Positions 34,929 to 61,800 of a stretch of DNA of 64,000 nt are shown here, one piece after another. The position numbers were made by a program, and so were the translations under genes. Each line of letters opens with the position of its first letter. Within the stretch, counting starts at the first letter, position 1. The stretch spans positions 28,676,408 through 28,740,407 of the forward strand of contig NC_026657.2 in NCBI RefSeq assembly GCF_000004075.3, in the 5' to 3' direction. Below the pieces are notes generated by a model. It was not told the origin of the DNA. It saw nothing but the letters and a program-made list of their open reading frames with translations, and made no database searches. Origin of the DNA: Cucumis sativus. Lineage: Eukaryota > Streptophyta > Magnoliopsida > Cucurbitales > Cucurbitaceae.

Positions 34929-36698
34929 CAAGAACCGTGTCGCTTTCAGTGAATCTTACAGCTACAAAACACCTACTGATATATAATTTAAAATTTTAAA
35001 TACATCCCCTTAAATAATCTCTCTTTCTTCAATCCTTTACGGAAATTTCCCAAACATCAACGCACCCCTCAGCCTTTATTTTCAAGGAAAGTTGGGGTTT
35101 TTTTTTTTTTTTTTTAAATAACAATAAATTGTAGAAGCACTTCGTTTATTATTTTTCTTCTTGAGATAATGTTATTTGTATTTCATTTATTTAAGATTTT
35201 AAGTACAATTAAACTTCTAAATCTCTTTAATTAATTAGTCGAGACATGTATATTATTTAGTTAAGTAATGATCAATTATAATATTAATCTATAACCTATT
35301 ACCATTAACTTATATATTAATCAACCCTTATTCTAGAATATCACTGATTTACTGTCACTTAATAAATTACTGATAAATCTTAGCAACGATGATGATAATT
35401 AGCATAACCTCTTATCCTAAAAACGTGTACTTAAAAAAAAAAAGACTTTGGTTTATAGTTGACGATGTCACCTTCACATCTCAAATTCAATTATTTTCCA
35501 GAGGTGGAGCCAAAGCATTGTATGGTAGTGTGGGTTAAATTTTCCACGACTCTCAACTTTTATTTCTAAAATCAATCAGAAACAAAACAATAAATAAATG
35601 CATTTCCCATTTCTTTTAACTTGAATTAAATGCAATATACATATATATAGTGATTAATCTAATCTTGTCTCTCTAGAAAAGGAAAATGACAATAAAAGAA
35701 AGGTGTTACACGGTAGCAAGAAGGAAAAAGGGAAGACAGGTAGAAGCATAGTTGGAAAGACTTAAGGCTGTGCTTAATAGGAGAATTTGAGATAGCAACT
35801 AAAAAAGTTCAAAATTTGGACATGTATGCAAAAATCAAAAGAAAATCTCCTGCAGACAATAAAAAGTGGTAACCTAAACAGAAAATGAAAAATGAATAGA
35901 AGATTTAGGTAATTAGACCACATGAAAGTGTGATAAATTGCTTGAAGAGTAAAGGTAAAATCAAAGCATATTACATCCTTCAAATCCAACAATCAGGAAG
36001 CAACTATGCGTAGAGCTACAAAGATAGCTGACCAAGAAGAGTTTCCACAGTGAAAACCACATCCTACAAAATCAAGAGATAAAAACCCGATCAAAAGTGT
36101 TATTTGAGCAAAGCAATTCGAGGAGAACAGGGCAAGCAAGGTCATTTTCAACCACAGAATCGACCCAGAATTAAAATATCCACCATTAAATCCATAAATA
36201 GAAGAGTTCAACATCAATATCAACAATTTTATTTTTTATAAATATGGGATTGTCTGGGCTAGTTCACACACCTCGACTAATCTCATGGAACAACTAATGT
36301 TAACAATCAATCAGCATGTTTTATTTGTACTCATACAATATTAAAAAATAACAGATATCATCAATTAACCAGCCGAAGTATAGAAACAAATACCTAAGAT
36401 CTATAACTTAATATGAGTAGACATAATTATTAAAGTCAACTGATTCCAATATCCACCATGCAATATTGAAATCCTTATATCATGTGAACATTATAATCCT
36501 TCGAATCAACCATAGCACAGTTTCAACTAATTGCACATTCATATGAAGAGAAAATTACAATCTGTAATAAGTGAATTTGAAGGACTGCAACATATTAAAT
36601 CATAGCAATGTTTTCACCATGCGGCTAAGTTGTCTTAGGAACAGCAGATGGATTGGTAAAAAGACATGAAAACGTATTTAGAGAATAAAACAATCATT
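34929..36698. other. Spacer, AT-rich
   Basis: PPR promoter and distal 3' flank of the Sel1 gene. It contains a long poly-T run near 35.1 kb. Small minus-strand frames at 35.77-36.23 kb are hydrophobic low-complexity and not supported. Confidence 0.5.
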
Positions 36699-37493
36699 CT
36701 TTAGGATCGTCAGCACAAATTGCATAACACGATCAACACCCAAAGGATGTTTAGCATATTGAACAACAAAGAAGTGACACGTAATAAGGTAGAAGATCCT
36801 TTTGTCATCGGAGTTTGTGACCTACAACAATTAACTCCAATGAACTTAATATTCATAATCATCTAAGATCCCTCCCCCAAAATCATCCAAGGAGGTCGGA
36901 ATAATAACAGGATATAGGAAAGAAAAGCTAAAAGTTAAGATTGGTGTGCCCTATCCACATCCTTTAGGATCTTCGGCACAAATTGCATAACATGATCAAT
37001 GCCCAAAGGATGTTTAGCATCTTGAACAATAAACAACTGACACGTAACCTCTAAGGCTCTAGGATAGAAGATCCTTTTGTCGTCAGAGTTTATGACCAAC
37101 AATTATCAACTTCAATGAACTTAATATTCATGATCATCTAAGATACCCTCCCTCAACATCACCCAAGGAGGTTGGAACAATAACTGGATATAGGGAAGCA
37201 AAGCTAAAAATTATGATTCGGGTATCCTATTCATCCTTTAGGATCCTCAGCACGAATTGTATAACACAATCACTGCCCAAAGGATGTTTAGCATCTTGAA
37301 CGGCACACATAACCTCTAAGGCTCTAGGGTAGAAGATCCTTTGCTGCCAGAGTTTATGACCTACAACTATTAACTTTGATGAACTTAATATTCGCATAAT
37401 CATCTAAGATCCCCTCACCCAAAATCATCCAAGGAGGTTGGAACAATAACTAATCTAGGGAAAAAAAGCTAAACATTATGATTGGCGCGTCCA
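36699..37493 (-). repeat. Three tandem copies of a ~265-bp unit
   Basis: Units begin with CTTTAGGATC at about 36699, 36962 and 37236 (periods 263 and 274 bp), each diverged by point changes and small indels. On the minus strand each unit keeps an open frame of about 35 codons with AKHPLG in all three, and FYPRALEV in two. That conserved frame hints at an ancestral exon or gene fragment; no family was recognised. The array lies downstream of the Sel1 gene and may be in its 3' transcript. Confidence 0.8.
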
Positions 37494-53681: not shown

Positions 53682-56441
53682 ATGGGAAAGGGTCACTACC
53701 CTCTGAGTGAATTTCAGGTATACCCATTTCAGTTCATGCAGATTCTTCCATCAAAAACTGCTGCTTGGTGCTCTAAATCACCAAATAACAACAGGAAACT
53801 CAAGAACCAACAATGGAGAAGCTGTTCTTCGTACCTCATTGCTCTGGCTTTTGCTCTTCTTTTGGCTTGTTCCTTTCGGCCAGTCACTGGCCAGATGTGG
53901 GATGGAGTGTCTGTTACTCAAGGCGACTTTCAAGCTCTTCAAGCTATAAAACATGAACTCGTTGATCTAAAAGGAGTTTTGCGTAGTTGGAATGGAAGTA
54001 ATGGAGCTTGTTCCGGGCAGTGGGTAGGAATCAAGTGCGTGAAAGGGCAGGTTATTGCTATACAGCTTCCATGGAAGGCCCTTGCCGGCAGGATTTCTGA
54101 TAGGATTGGGCAGCTCCGGGAACTTCGGAAGCTTAGCCTCCATGACAATGTGATCTCTGGCGTGATCCCTCGGTCCATCGGGTTCCTTCCAAATCTCAGA
54201 GGAATTTATCTTTTCAACAACAGATTATCAGGTTCTATTCCTCCTACTATTGGTCATCTTCCCCTACTTCAAACTCTTGATTTGAGCAACAATTTGCTCA
54301 CTGGAGAAATTCCTTTCGGTATAGCAAATTCTACCAAATTGATTAGAGTTAATCTGAGTTACAATTCATTGTCGGGATCTATCCCAACAAGTTTCACGCA
54401 GTCGTTTTCTCTTATAATTCTCGCCCTTCAGCACAATAATATTTCTGGGACTGTCCCAGATTCTTGGGGAAGTCTTGGAAACAAAACTTGCCCACTTGGG
54501 GTTTTGACACTTGATCATAATGCTATATCTGGAGCAATTCCAGCTTCTTTAACTAAATTGGAATGGCTTCAAGAGATTTCCATCAGTGAGAACAAGATCT
54601 CTGGAGCTATACCAGGTGAAATAGGCAGGCTGAAGAGACTTCGTCTTTTGGATTTGTCGAATAACGCCATTAACGGCAGCTTCCCTTCAAGTTTCTCCAA
54701 TCTCTCCTCTCTTCAGTTATTGAAGGTTGAAAATAATCGTCTTGAAAGCCAGATTCCAGAAGATATTGATAGATTGCACAATCTCTCGGTGGTCAAGCTT
54801 GGGAAGAATCGTTTTAGTGGTGAGATTCCTGCAAGTTTTGGGAACATTTCTGCTATTAGCCAACTTGATTTCTCAGAAAATAACTTCACTGGACAGATTC
54901 CAACATCATTGACCCGGTTGTTGAATCTAACCTCTTTCAATGTCTCTTACAACAATCTCTCTGGCCCTGTCCCAGTTCTCCTATCAAATAAGTTCAATGC
55001 GAGCTCTTTTGTAGGGAACCTTCAACTGTGTGGTTTTAGTACTTCAACTCCATGCCTACCTGCATCCTCCCCACAGAATATTACTACTCCATCAACTGAG
55101 GTCCTGAAACCGCGTCACCACCGCAGACTTAGTGTAAAGGACATAATCCTGATAGCGGCAGGAGCTCTGTTGGTGCTTCTTCTTCTTCTCTGCTCAATTT
55201 TGCTCTGTTGTTTATTATCAAAAAGAGCAGCTGCCAGGAAGACTGACAAAACAACTGCCAAGCAAGCTGCTGCCAGAAGCATCGAAAAGGCAGCACCCGG
55301 GAGCACAGAAGTTGGAGCAGGTGAAGCTGGTGGAAAACTAGTTCATTTTGATGGGCCATTCGTTTTCACTGCTGATGATCTTCTGTGTGCGACTGCTGAG
55401 ATCATGGGCAAGAGCACATATGGAACAGCATATAAAGCAACATTGGAAGATGGAAATGAAGTTGCAGTGAAAAGATTGAGAGAGAAAACAACAAAAGGGC
55501 ACAAGGAATTTGAAACCGAAGTTGCAGGCCTCGGAAAAATTCGACATCCAAATCTACTTGCTCTTAGAGCTTACTACTTAGGCCCCAAAGGAGAGAAGCT
55601 CCTGGTCTTTGATTACATGCCTAGAGGAAGCCTCTCTTCCTTCCTTCATGGTAAGTAAACTCAACAGTTGACTGTACAAGTTTTACTATCATCGTTTTCC
55701 TTTTCTTTTTTCCAATTGCAGTTCAAACAGGATCGAGACTCAGAAGCAGCAAGCTCTACTACTTATGAAAGAGGTTATTGATCTAGTTAAGCTATACTCA
55801 TAACTCATATACTTACTTTTGTTTTACTGTATGCAGCTCGTGGACCAGAAACCACAGTCGATTGGCCAACAAGGATGAAAATAGCGATTGGAATCACGCA
55901 AGGCTTGAACTACCTCCACACAGAGGAGAATCTTATTCATGGAAACCTCACGTCCAGCAACATTCTGCTGGATGATCAGAGTAATGCTCGTATTGCAGAT
56001 TTTGGGCTTCCCAAGCTCATGACTTCAGCTGCAGCCACAAATGTGATTGCCACTGCAGGATCACAGGGCTACAATGCACCAGAGCTAACAAAAACCAAAA
56101 AGACCACAACAAAGACAGATGTCTACAGCCTTGGAGTCATAATATTGGAACTCTTGACAGGAAAATCTCCTGGAGAAGCCATGGATGGAATGGACTTACC
56201 ACAGTGGGTGGCCTCAATAGTAAAGGAAGAGTGGACAAATGAAGTGTTTGATTTGGAGCTTATGAAAGATACACAAAATATTGGCGATGAACTGCTGAAC
56301 ACTTTAAAACTAGCCCTGCATTGTGTTGATCCGTCACCAACTGCTCGGCCAGATGTTCAGCAGATTCTCCAGCAACTGGAGGAAATCAATGCTTCTACTT
56401 CTGGTGACGACGGTGCCAAAAATCAACCAGAAAATGAATAG
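53682..56441 (+). CDS. IMK2: IMK2-type LRR receptor-like kinase, atypical kinase
   Basis: A plasma-membrane LRR-RLK of 857 residues, two exons (53682-55650, 55837-56441). A hydrophobic signal segment follows a long basic N-terminus (about residues 48-70); Met19 is an alternative start. The ectodomain has [12 protein letters not shown], an LRR cap with WVGIKC, about ten LRRs (LSGSIP, LTGEIP, ISGAIP) and a closing LSGPVP. The membrane helix is [19 protein letters not shown]. The kinase has [17 protein letters not shown] and ADFGLPKL (711-713), but HGN at 691-693 replaces the catalytic HRD, so it is probably a weak or dead kinase. That is the known state of the IMK2/IMK3 group, linked to inflorescence meristems. 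I recall At3g51740 as the counterpart. Confidence 0.93.
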
Positions 56442-57794: not shown

Positions 57795-57910
57795 AAGAAG
57801 AACCAGTGAAACTCAGGATGGATAGCGCCGCGATAGAGAAATCGCCAACCCGTAAACGGAACCGCCTTCAATCAACGGCGCTATCCCTCCTGAGCTTCAG
57901 AGGATTCTTC
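57795..57910 (-). ncRNA. MIR390: MIR390 precursor hairpin
   Basis: The minus strand carries the full 21-nt miR390 guide at 57877-57897 (starting AAGCTCAGGAGGG) and the known star strand at 57807-57827 (starting CGCTATCCATCC). They pair across a loop of about 49 nt with the two usual mismatches. miR390 loads into AGO7 and triggers cutting of TAS3 transcripts, giving tasiRNAs that silence ARF2/3/4 in leaf polarity, root and phase change. Both arms match the canonical sequences as I remember them. The promoter should lie above 57910, shared with or near BRCA2. In Arabidopsis MIR390A (At2g38325) lies near the WRKY33 and PRA1.B4 genes, so position supports orthology. Confidence 0.96.
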
Positions 57911-58878
57911 TTAACTTCAGTCGATGTTTCCAACAGCGGCAAACCATTGTTATTAAGTAGAGAGAGAAAAAACAAACGTAGGATGATGGGAAACACAGTG
58001 AGAAATGGCAACAGGGAATTGGTTAGAAGATGATATTGTATAATTGATGAAGAATAGTACTCGTAATCTTGATGAAGAGTATGGGAGGACACTGTTTAGC
58101 CTGTGAATGGTCGGAATGTAGTTTCACCCCTTTTCTTCTTTCCTTTTGACTACTCTACACCATCTTGCCGACTACGATGCTTTACACTTTTCTTGCGCTG
58201 CATTCCCCAACGCTGCTGCAAGGCAATGCACGACTGAAATACTAAAGCAGGAGTACTTAACGAAATTAATACCAATTGAAGACTGGGGCAATATTGAGAA
58301 CAGTATCAGCAAAGATTTTGATTATTGGCTGTATTGCTAGAAAAAGGAGAAAGATGTTTTGATCGTGCAATGACAAGGCCGAATAATGCACCACCTGTTT
58401 CAAATGTTAGGTAGTAATTTAAACAACTTTCGTATAGCCATTTTTGAAATTATTGGAACACCGGTGATGGGTCGTTTTAAGTGAATTATGCGTGTGTACT
58501 GAGGTCTAAATTTATAGAATGGAGTTAAATCATATGCAAAAATATGTATACGAATAATAATAGTCGATGGAACAATGAAAGAAGAAAGAGATGGTTTTAA
58601 ATAGATGGGAACTTGGGCTTGGAGCCCAAGCTTGGATCTACTTTACGATCCAAGTGCGGACTGGGGTGGGACAAATGGTTTGAACCCAAACGAACCATTT
58701 TAACTTGAAAAATAGACGAGGTTCCTTGATTCTACGTTGAACCCATTCCCCCCAATCGGATCTTCTTCCCTCCTCAGTTCCGAAATTTCCCGCCACTTAT
58801 TTTGGAAGAACGGTATAGACTCAGCTCAAAAGCCCAAAGCCGACGCTCACTCCGCTGCCTCATTCGGTGCGACGGGGC
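57911..58878. promoter_or_regulatory. Divergent MIR390-BRCA2 intergenic region
   Basis: About 970 bp between the MIR390 hairpin (-) and the BRCA2 ATG (+). It must contain the promoter and leader of both. A hairpin-proximal plus frame at 57.8-58.0 kb is only the antisense of the precursor. No clear TATA box was assigned. Confidence 0.5.
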
Positions 58879-61800
58879 ATGTCGTCTTGGCAGATTTTAT
58901 CCGATTCCGGCAACAATTTTCGGTGGGAACTTTCTGCTCAGCGTCTCGAAGTCAAATCCGAATGCGAACAAAATGGTTCTCTTTCTCGAAGTGACAGCAC
59001 CAACTCCGTCGCCCGTCTCCCATCCATGGCTGACCTCTTGCTTTGCTCAAGGTTCATGCAAAATTCCGAGGATGCAGGTGCGGGCGCTTCGATGTTTCGA
59101 ACCGGATTGGGAAAATCAGTTTCTGTAAAACAGTCTTCAATCGATAAGGCTTTGTCTCTGCTCTCCGATGATAAAGCTCCAGATATAGGTTTTTCTTCAC
59201 TCTCTTAATTCCGTCAATTTATTTAGCTATAGATACCTAATCTCCATTGCTGTGTAGAACTTCTTAACTTGATTACTCAATCAAAATCTATGTAGCTCGC
59301 AATTTTGATTCATATTCCATCTTTGCTATTTTCTTACTTCGCTCTTTTAACATGTTATTGTTCATTTAATCTCACGACCGAGGGAAATTCGTGTGTTTTT
59401 CTAATTAGGTTGCTTATAGTCATAGTTGATGGATAAATCTCTATTAGTTCAATTCATGCAGGTCGATTGCATAATGGAGGTAATTTCTCCAATTCTCTCT
59501 TTCAAACGGGCTCTGGGAAATCGGTCAACGTATCTTCTGAAGGTCTTCTCAGAGCCAAGACATTGTTGGGACTGGAAGAAGATGATACATGTTCCAGTTT
59601 TCAAAGATTCGGACAAGCCATCAGCCCATACGATGTGAAAGGGGAATTTTTGGAATCAAAAGGTGTGTGTGGTATGGAGAACATGAGCGGTGCATCAGTT
59701 TCAATCTCTCCATTGGTCTTTAATACTTGCTTTTCAAGAAGTTCATCAGAGAATCAAGCTAGCCCGTCATTCAGACAAATTGAATTGCCTAATAAGGCTC
59801 CCAAGGCTCCTCCAATAAAGTTTCACACAGCTGGGGGTAGATCCTTATCTGTTTCAAGTGATGCACTACAACGTGCAAGAAGTCTCCTTGGTGACCCAGA
59901 GTTGGGAAGTTTCTTGGATGATGGGGACAGTGATTGCTATAAGAGGAATATGGGAGATGCAACACCGTCAAATGGGGAACATATTTTTCACACTCCTTCA
60001 TTCAACAAGGTAGAGTCAACTACTAAACACACATCCAAAAGCTTTGTTTCCCCATTAAGACCATCTTCAAGAGTTATGCAATCTTCATTGAAGTCAAAAA
60101 GTATATTAGGTAGTAATTTGATGAAGAAATTTGATGCAGCCGAAGAAGAAAGTATTAGTAGGTTTGACGACAATAAATCCTGTTTGGCAGAAACTATTGG
60201 CAGCCAGCCTAATGAGCCATGTACTATAGTGGAGAATGCTCTTGAAAATGGAATTAGATCAGGGATTCATTTGGCTGAACGGTCATTTGGTGAGCCACTG
60301 AATGACATTTCGAATATTGTCGACTCAAGAAGTAGAAGTGATAGAGCTAGTAATAACGAGAAGAGGAAGCTTTGGGGTACAAGTTCCATATCTCCATTCA
60401 AAAGGCCTCGGAATTCCAAGTTTTCCACTCCCTTTAATAAGAATGCATCACTTGTGACTACAAGTCAGTTTACCTTCTTTAGCCTTTCCACATCTTATTT
60501 GTTAGCTTCAGTATTTTTATGGAATCTTGACTATATTTTTGACCAGGTTTATCAACTTCATCGTCTAATAACTTCAGTTGCAAAAGAAGGGTTTCCACTC
60601 GGTATCCACATCAAACTTCAAGGATGTATATGAAGGAGTATTTTGGAAGACCTTCATCAAACCATGACAAGGTACGTAGATCTAAGGTCAGCACACCCTA
60701 AATTTTCTGTTGAATTCCGATACTGAGACGCTATTTTCAACTATGGTGAAATAGTTGGATTACTTGTCAGACGAAGTCAGAAGAATCAAAGCAGAAAATG
60801 CAGAGAAATATAAAGTTCCTGACAACTCTGGCACAAATTGTATTGGAGTAGAAGCTTTTCGTCATATGTTAACCGACTCTGGAGCTTCCCCACAACATGT
60901 TTCTGAATTGTAAATTTTTCTGACTTTTTAATTCTTACACACACTATTATGAAAGGGTGCAATCCAATCAAATACAATTCAGGTCAACCCTTGTGGGTGC
61001 ATGAGAAGTTTGGACTTTTGGAGTAGCTTAGCCTAATAGTCTCACTGTTTGCAGAAGGAGACATATGATCAGTTCTTGCTCCCTATTGAGTTTTCTCAAA
61101 TTTTTTGGGTATGGGTTTAACTTTTGTGGTTCTGGCTGTTTAGGTGGGTTACAAATCACTACAAGTGGATTGTTTGGAAACTGGCCTGCTATGAGAGGCA
61201 GAGTCTGGTCAAATCAAATAGAAATTTTTTGGGAGTTTCCAATGTTCTCGAGGAATTGAAATATAGGTGAATGATTGCATTTATTACTCAAATATGATAG
61301 AATAGAACTACCCTATTTATGAAAAGAGTGAAATAAATTATTTAATGCTTGAAAGGTATGAAAGAGAAGTTAATCAAGGCCACCGTTCTGCAATAAAGAG
61401 AATACTGGAAGGAGATGCACCACCATCTATGTTGTTAACTTTATGTATTTCAGCTATTCGCTCAAAATGCAAATCAAGGGCCCAAGTCTGTTCATCCATG
61501 ATCAGCGAGTCTAATTATGGTGAAGGGGCAAAAGTTGAATTGACTGATGGATGGTATGGAACTGACCCTATAGGATTTTCATTACATATTTTTGATTCTT
61601 TGGCATTGATATTGGATGTGATAGGTATTCCATTGATGCTCTTTTGGATGGGCCACTGTCAAAGCAACTTCTTATGGGAAAACTGTTTGTGGGACAGAAA
61701 CTTCGGGTAATTTATCTATTGTTTATCCAATTCTTTATTCATTGAATGTGCTTCCAGCTAACAGTTTTGCATCTCTTTTGAAGATATGGGGAGCAAGATT

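Follow-up and report, generated by a model that had tools for sequence, protein, structure and literature searches.

A MIR390 precursor in a 64-kb stretch of the cucumber genome, where at least five loci share its guide

The plant microRNA gene MIR390 is ancient and serves to tune auxin responses. Two features of its product, the 5' A and the mismatch at guide position 11, are read by AGO7, and plant microRNA genes in general are recognized by few mismatches in the duplex and by 2-nt 3' overhangs. In cucumber shoot tips, four members of the csa-miR390 family have been reported, with Table 1 of that study giving AAGCTCAGGAGGGATAGCGCC as the dominant 5p sequence (174,310 reads) and CGCTATCCATCCTGAGTTTCA as the dominant 3p sequence (1,220 reads) (PMC6238408). 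csa-miR390 also appears in a second study, counted 425 times in one of its two tissues and 315 times in the other (PMC3316546). Plant foldbacks that DCL1 processes in the base-to-loop direction are described as having a basal stem of 15 to 17 bp (PMC10602918). In the TAS3 genes of watermelon and pepo, positions 9 to 12 of the 5' miR390 site are described as containing two mismatches and one G:U pair, whereas the 3' site is perfect at these positions (PMC3431224).

The window analyzed here is a 64-kb stretch of the cucumber genome (C3:28676408-28740407), and the locus of interest within it is referred to as the C3 copy; its features are listed in Table 1. A pattern scan of the window located the 21-nt miR390 guide AAGCTCAGGAGGGATAGCGCC on the minus strand with no mismatches, and the canonical star CGCTATCCATCCTGAGTTTCA was found on the same strand. 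When up to three mismatches were allowed, the guide pattern matched twice in the 64 kb, against a mean of 0.00 in 100 shuffles; the second match (57809-57829, plus strand, two mismatches) is the star arm read in reverse complement. The minus strand from 57925 to 57780 folded into a single long stem of -69.1 kcal/mol (z score of -6.58), and none of 200 shuffled sequences was equally stable. The same fold surpassed all 876 non-overlapping 146-nt tiles of the window (438 per strand, including tiles that cut into the hairpin), for which the minimum was -55.5. The Rfam model RF00689 (MIR390) matched the foldback over positions 1 to 121 of its 121, with a score of 85.4 bits (E value of 1.2e-17) against a curated cutoff of 77 bits, and this was the sole Rfam match at curated cutoffs across the whole window. 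The C3 copy agrees with the family in its full-length model match, guide, star, and stem structure, whereas its distal loop departs from the model consensus. With the exact guide in the 5' arm and the canonical star in the 3' arm, the locus is a real, ordinary member of an already known microRNA family. The initial annotation, made by a reader without tools, had thus placed a microRNA precursor to the base and on the right strand: its positions for guide and star are exact, the hairpin arrangement it proposed was borne out by the fold, and its naming of the gene as MIR390 agrees with the Rfam score and the canonical duplex geometry. The interval it gave for the precursor, 57795-57910, differs by no more than 2 nt from the span of the RF00689 match, 57912-57795.

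Table 1. Features of the C3 copy of MIR390 (positions in the 64-kb window)
Feature	Position	Strand	Basis
MIR390 foldback (pre-miRNA)	57795..57912	-	RF00689 match and fold of 57925-57780
miR390 guide (5p), 21 nt, 5' A	57877..57897	-	Exact match
miR390* (3p), 21 nt	57807..57827	-	Pairing table
Distal stem-loop, 49 nt, weakly conserved among paralogs	57828..57876	-	Fold and paralog alignment
Basal stem, 5' arm, ~15 nt	57898..57912	-	Pairing table
Basal stem, 3' arm	57795..57806	-	Pairing table
Antisense 71-aa open frame over the hairpin, judged spurious	57818..58033	+	ATG ORF

In the predicted fold, guide nucleotide 1 is paired with star nucleotide 19 and guide nucleotide 19 with star nucleotide 1, which yields 2-nt 3' overhangs at the ends of the duplex. 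The duplex contains one mismatch, the sole unpaired guide base being the G at position 11, and the C3 copy therefore has both the 5' A and the position 11 mismatch of miR390, together with the few mismatches and the overhangs expected of a plant microRNA gene. Below the duplex, 57912-57898 pairs with 57795-57808, interrupted by a single-base bulge and a small internal loop, and this basal stem of approximately 15 nt fits the length given for base-to-loop processing. Arabidopsis MIR390a, by its description, is similarly built, with a basal stem of approximately 15 nt, a miR390/miR390* duplex, and a distal stem-loop of variable size (PMC10602918).

RF00689 was also searched against the 226,625,048-base assembly (88 contigs). 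As only 45 of the 36,773 first-look candidates were scored, the number of loci obtained is a lower bound: at least five MIR390 loci are present, including one each on C1, C3, and C6 and two on C4. The search returned 10 rows, corresponding to five places on both strands, and the cutoff was passed by six of the rows and by all five places; a control search of 14 genomes gave no family match in any of them. The guide sequence is identical at all five loci found, while the star sequence of the C3 copy is present at two, C3 and C1. Consequently, although the dominant 5p and 3p sequences published for cucumber are identical to those of the C3 copy, the published reads do not single it out (PMC6238408). 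A primer for csa-MIR390b (PMC6769560), searched minus its first base, fits the C6 locus and not the C3 copy. The two loci on C4 (at ~15.93 and ~15.97 Mb) are 39,220 bases apart and sit in a duplication that is 99.8% identical over 8,472 aligned bases, which either arose very recently or is an artefact of the assembly. This duplication could be the reason for the difference between the at least five loci identified here and the four members counted in the shoot tip study (PMC6238408); the C3 copy itself might also be a member absent from that count.

Alignment of the five loci revealed that conservation is concentrated in the arms, with 21 of the 21 guide columns and 19 of the 21 star columns invariant, along with a 3' TTCTTCTT, while the loops differ. 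Comparison of the surrounding 10-kb blocks gave a similar picture: all five share the hairpin arms, and outside these the C3 block matches only the C1 block, over a single stretch of 25 bases. It could be argued that the C3 copy was recently silenced, its hairpin remaining intact behind a dead promoter while the miRNA comes from the four further loci that carry this guide. Its sense-strand RF00689 score is the lowest of the five (85.4 versus 91.8 to 105.1 bits), and no TATA-like box is close, the only one within 1.1 kb upstream of the guide lying 619 nt from it. However, the guide, star, basal stem, and position 11 mismatch of the C3 copy are all intact, and the preservation of these parts, in a locus whose loop and flanks have next to no similarity to those of the paralogs, points to continued selection; we regard silencing as very unlikely. 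Three auxin-response motifs were also searched for within 1.1 kb upstream of the guide, without a match. A functional MIR390 gene is the reading we prefer; that it is a diverged copy, with a loop and flanks of its own and an expression domain unlike those of the other copies, supplying miR390 in a particular tissue, is a tentative suggestion that we consider unlikely.

The hairpin is crossed on the plus strand by an ATG ORF of 71 amino acids, in a frame that is open from 57779. In a rival reading, this is a real protein gene and the hairpin is incidental to it: the frame runs over both the star and guide arms, and ORFs of this size in the window are not all due to chance. ATG ORFs of 71 or more amino acids numbered 66 in the window, whereas a mean of 18.9 (range, 9 to 30) was expected from 60 first-order Markov sequences of the window's length and composition. 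Some of the window's ORFs of this size are therefore coding, and length alone does not settle the status of this one. Nevertheless, the 71-aa ORF had no Pfam match, in contrast to the other seven of the eight window frames scanned, and no second copy of it was found in the genome, where it recovered only itself at an E value of ≤0.001; nor can an exact guide and star be incidental. The ORF was rejected as a gene, and the chance that it encodes a protein is close to nil. The initial annotation had mentioned this frame and called it spurious, a reasonable judgment on these results.

On the sense strand, a 16-aa ORF lies upstream of the guide (57947-57897, minus strand), and the last base of its stop codon is the first base of miR390. 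This ORF was rejected as a conserved miPEP, as the ATG frames of 8 or more amino acids in the 200 nt preceding the guide at the remaining four loci encode peptides that are, by eye, unrelated to it. The neighboring genes are both on the plus strand. An LRR receptor-like kinase, with frames at 53685-55658 and 55791-56441 carrying the LRR and kinase domains, is convergent with MIR390, and a frame with BRCA2 repeats (59437-60633) is divergent from it. Elsewhere in the window, a tandem array was identified at 36694-37483, with a 275-base unit in 3.0 copies (80% matches).

The same genome was searched for the downstream components of the pathway. An exact core pattern of tasiR-ARF was found at nine places, against none for the reversed-pattern control. 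Five of these sites are antisense to open frames encoding VLQGQE, four of them as KVLQGQE and the one on C1 as RVLQGQE. They fall within three ARF-like frames, at C1:75997 (one site), C6:14.68 Mb (two sites), and C6:29.44 Mb (two sites), and ARF_AD (PF06507) matches lie less than 2 kb from all three. The ARF_AD domain was matched 35 times genome-wide and in none of 14 control genomes. The remaining four sites are arranged as two pairs in tandem, one at C6:16.725 Mb and the other at ~70.5 kb on C20, and represent TAS3. The 3-kb loci at these two places are identical, and the C20 copy may be an unplaced duplicate of the C6 locus.

Two miR390 sites flank the tasiR-ARF pair in TAS3. The 5' site, ahead of the pair, is mismatched with the guide at positions 9, 10, and 18 and forms a G:U pair at position 11. 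The 3' site, after the pair, leaves one guide base bulged near position 9 or 10, and 6 of the other 20 positions are not Watson-Crick, such that the pairing is weak. This 3' site was not found by ungapped scans; it was first spotted by eye in the sequence and then scanned for with one deleted base allowed. In this one-deletion scan of the 3-kb locus it ranked third, with 6 differences in 20 positions (the next best had 8), and the two placements ranked above it were overlapping placements of the 5' site. Compared with TAS3 of watermelon and pepo as described in PMC3431224, the 5' sites are alike, whereas the 3' site is bulged in cucumber and perfect at positions 9 to 12 in the other two. On the assumption that miR390 cuts at the 3' site opposite guide positions 10 and 11, the two tasiR-ARFs start exactly 126 and 147 nt upstream of the first 21-nt unit counted from this cut, corresponding to 6.0 and 7.0 registers. 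The genome therefore contains a TAS3 target in 21-nt register with the inferred cut, through a 3' site that is weak and bulged. We take these 6 and 7 registers to be D7(+) and D8(+), the places of the tasiR-ARFs in Arabidopsis TAS3. The cucumber 3' site is short of one base opposite the guide, yet the D7/D8 register of the tasiR-ARFs is kept.

Taken with the hairpin, these findings lead us to read the C3 copy as a minus-strand MIR390 gene that is functional, working via the miR390/TAS3/ARF route, with a probability of roughly 0.95. By analogy with the known pathway, the copy would be transcribed from the minus strand and the transcript would fold into the hairpin, from which DCL1 cutting from base to loop would free the miR390/miR390* duplex. 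AGO7 would presumably load the guide, with its 5' A and position 11 mismatch, and the loaded miR390 would be expected to cut TAS3 at the 3' site. The products of this cut would be 21-nt tasiR-ARFs, by which mRNAs of the ARF2/3/4 type would be silenced, the C3 copy providing a putative share of total miR390. The initial annotation stated that this gene controls the TAS3-ARF pathway; TAS3 and three ARF genes with sites are indeed present in the genome, but the statement is too strong for one of at least five loci carrying the same guide. The biological gain is at most one more locus for a pathway that is already well studied, and anyone who edits miR390 in cucumber has at least five loci to take into account, of which two are near-identical.
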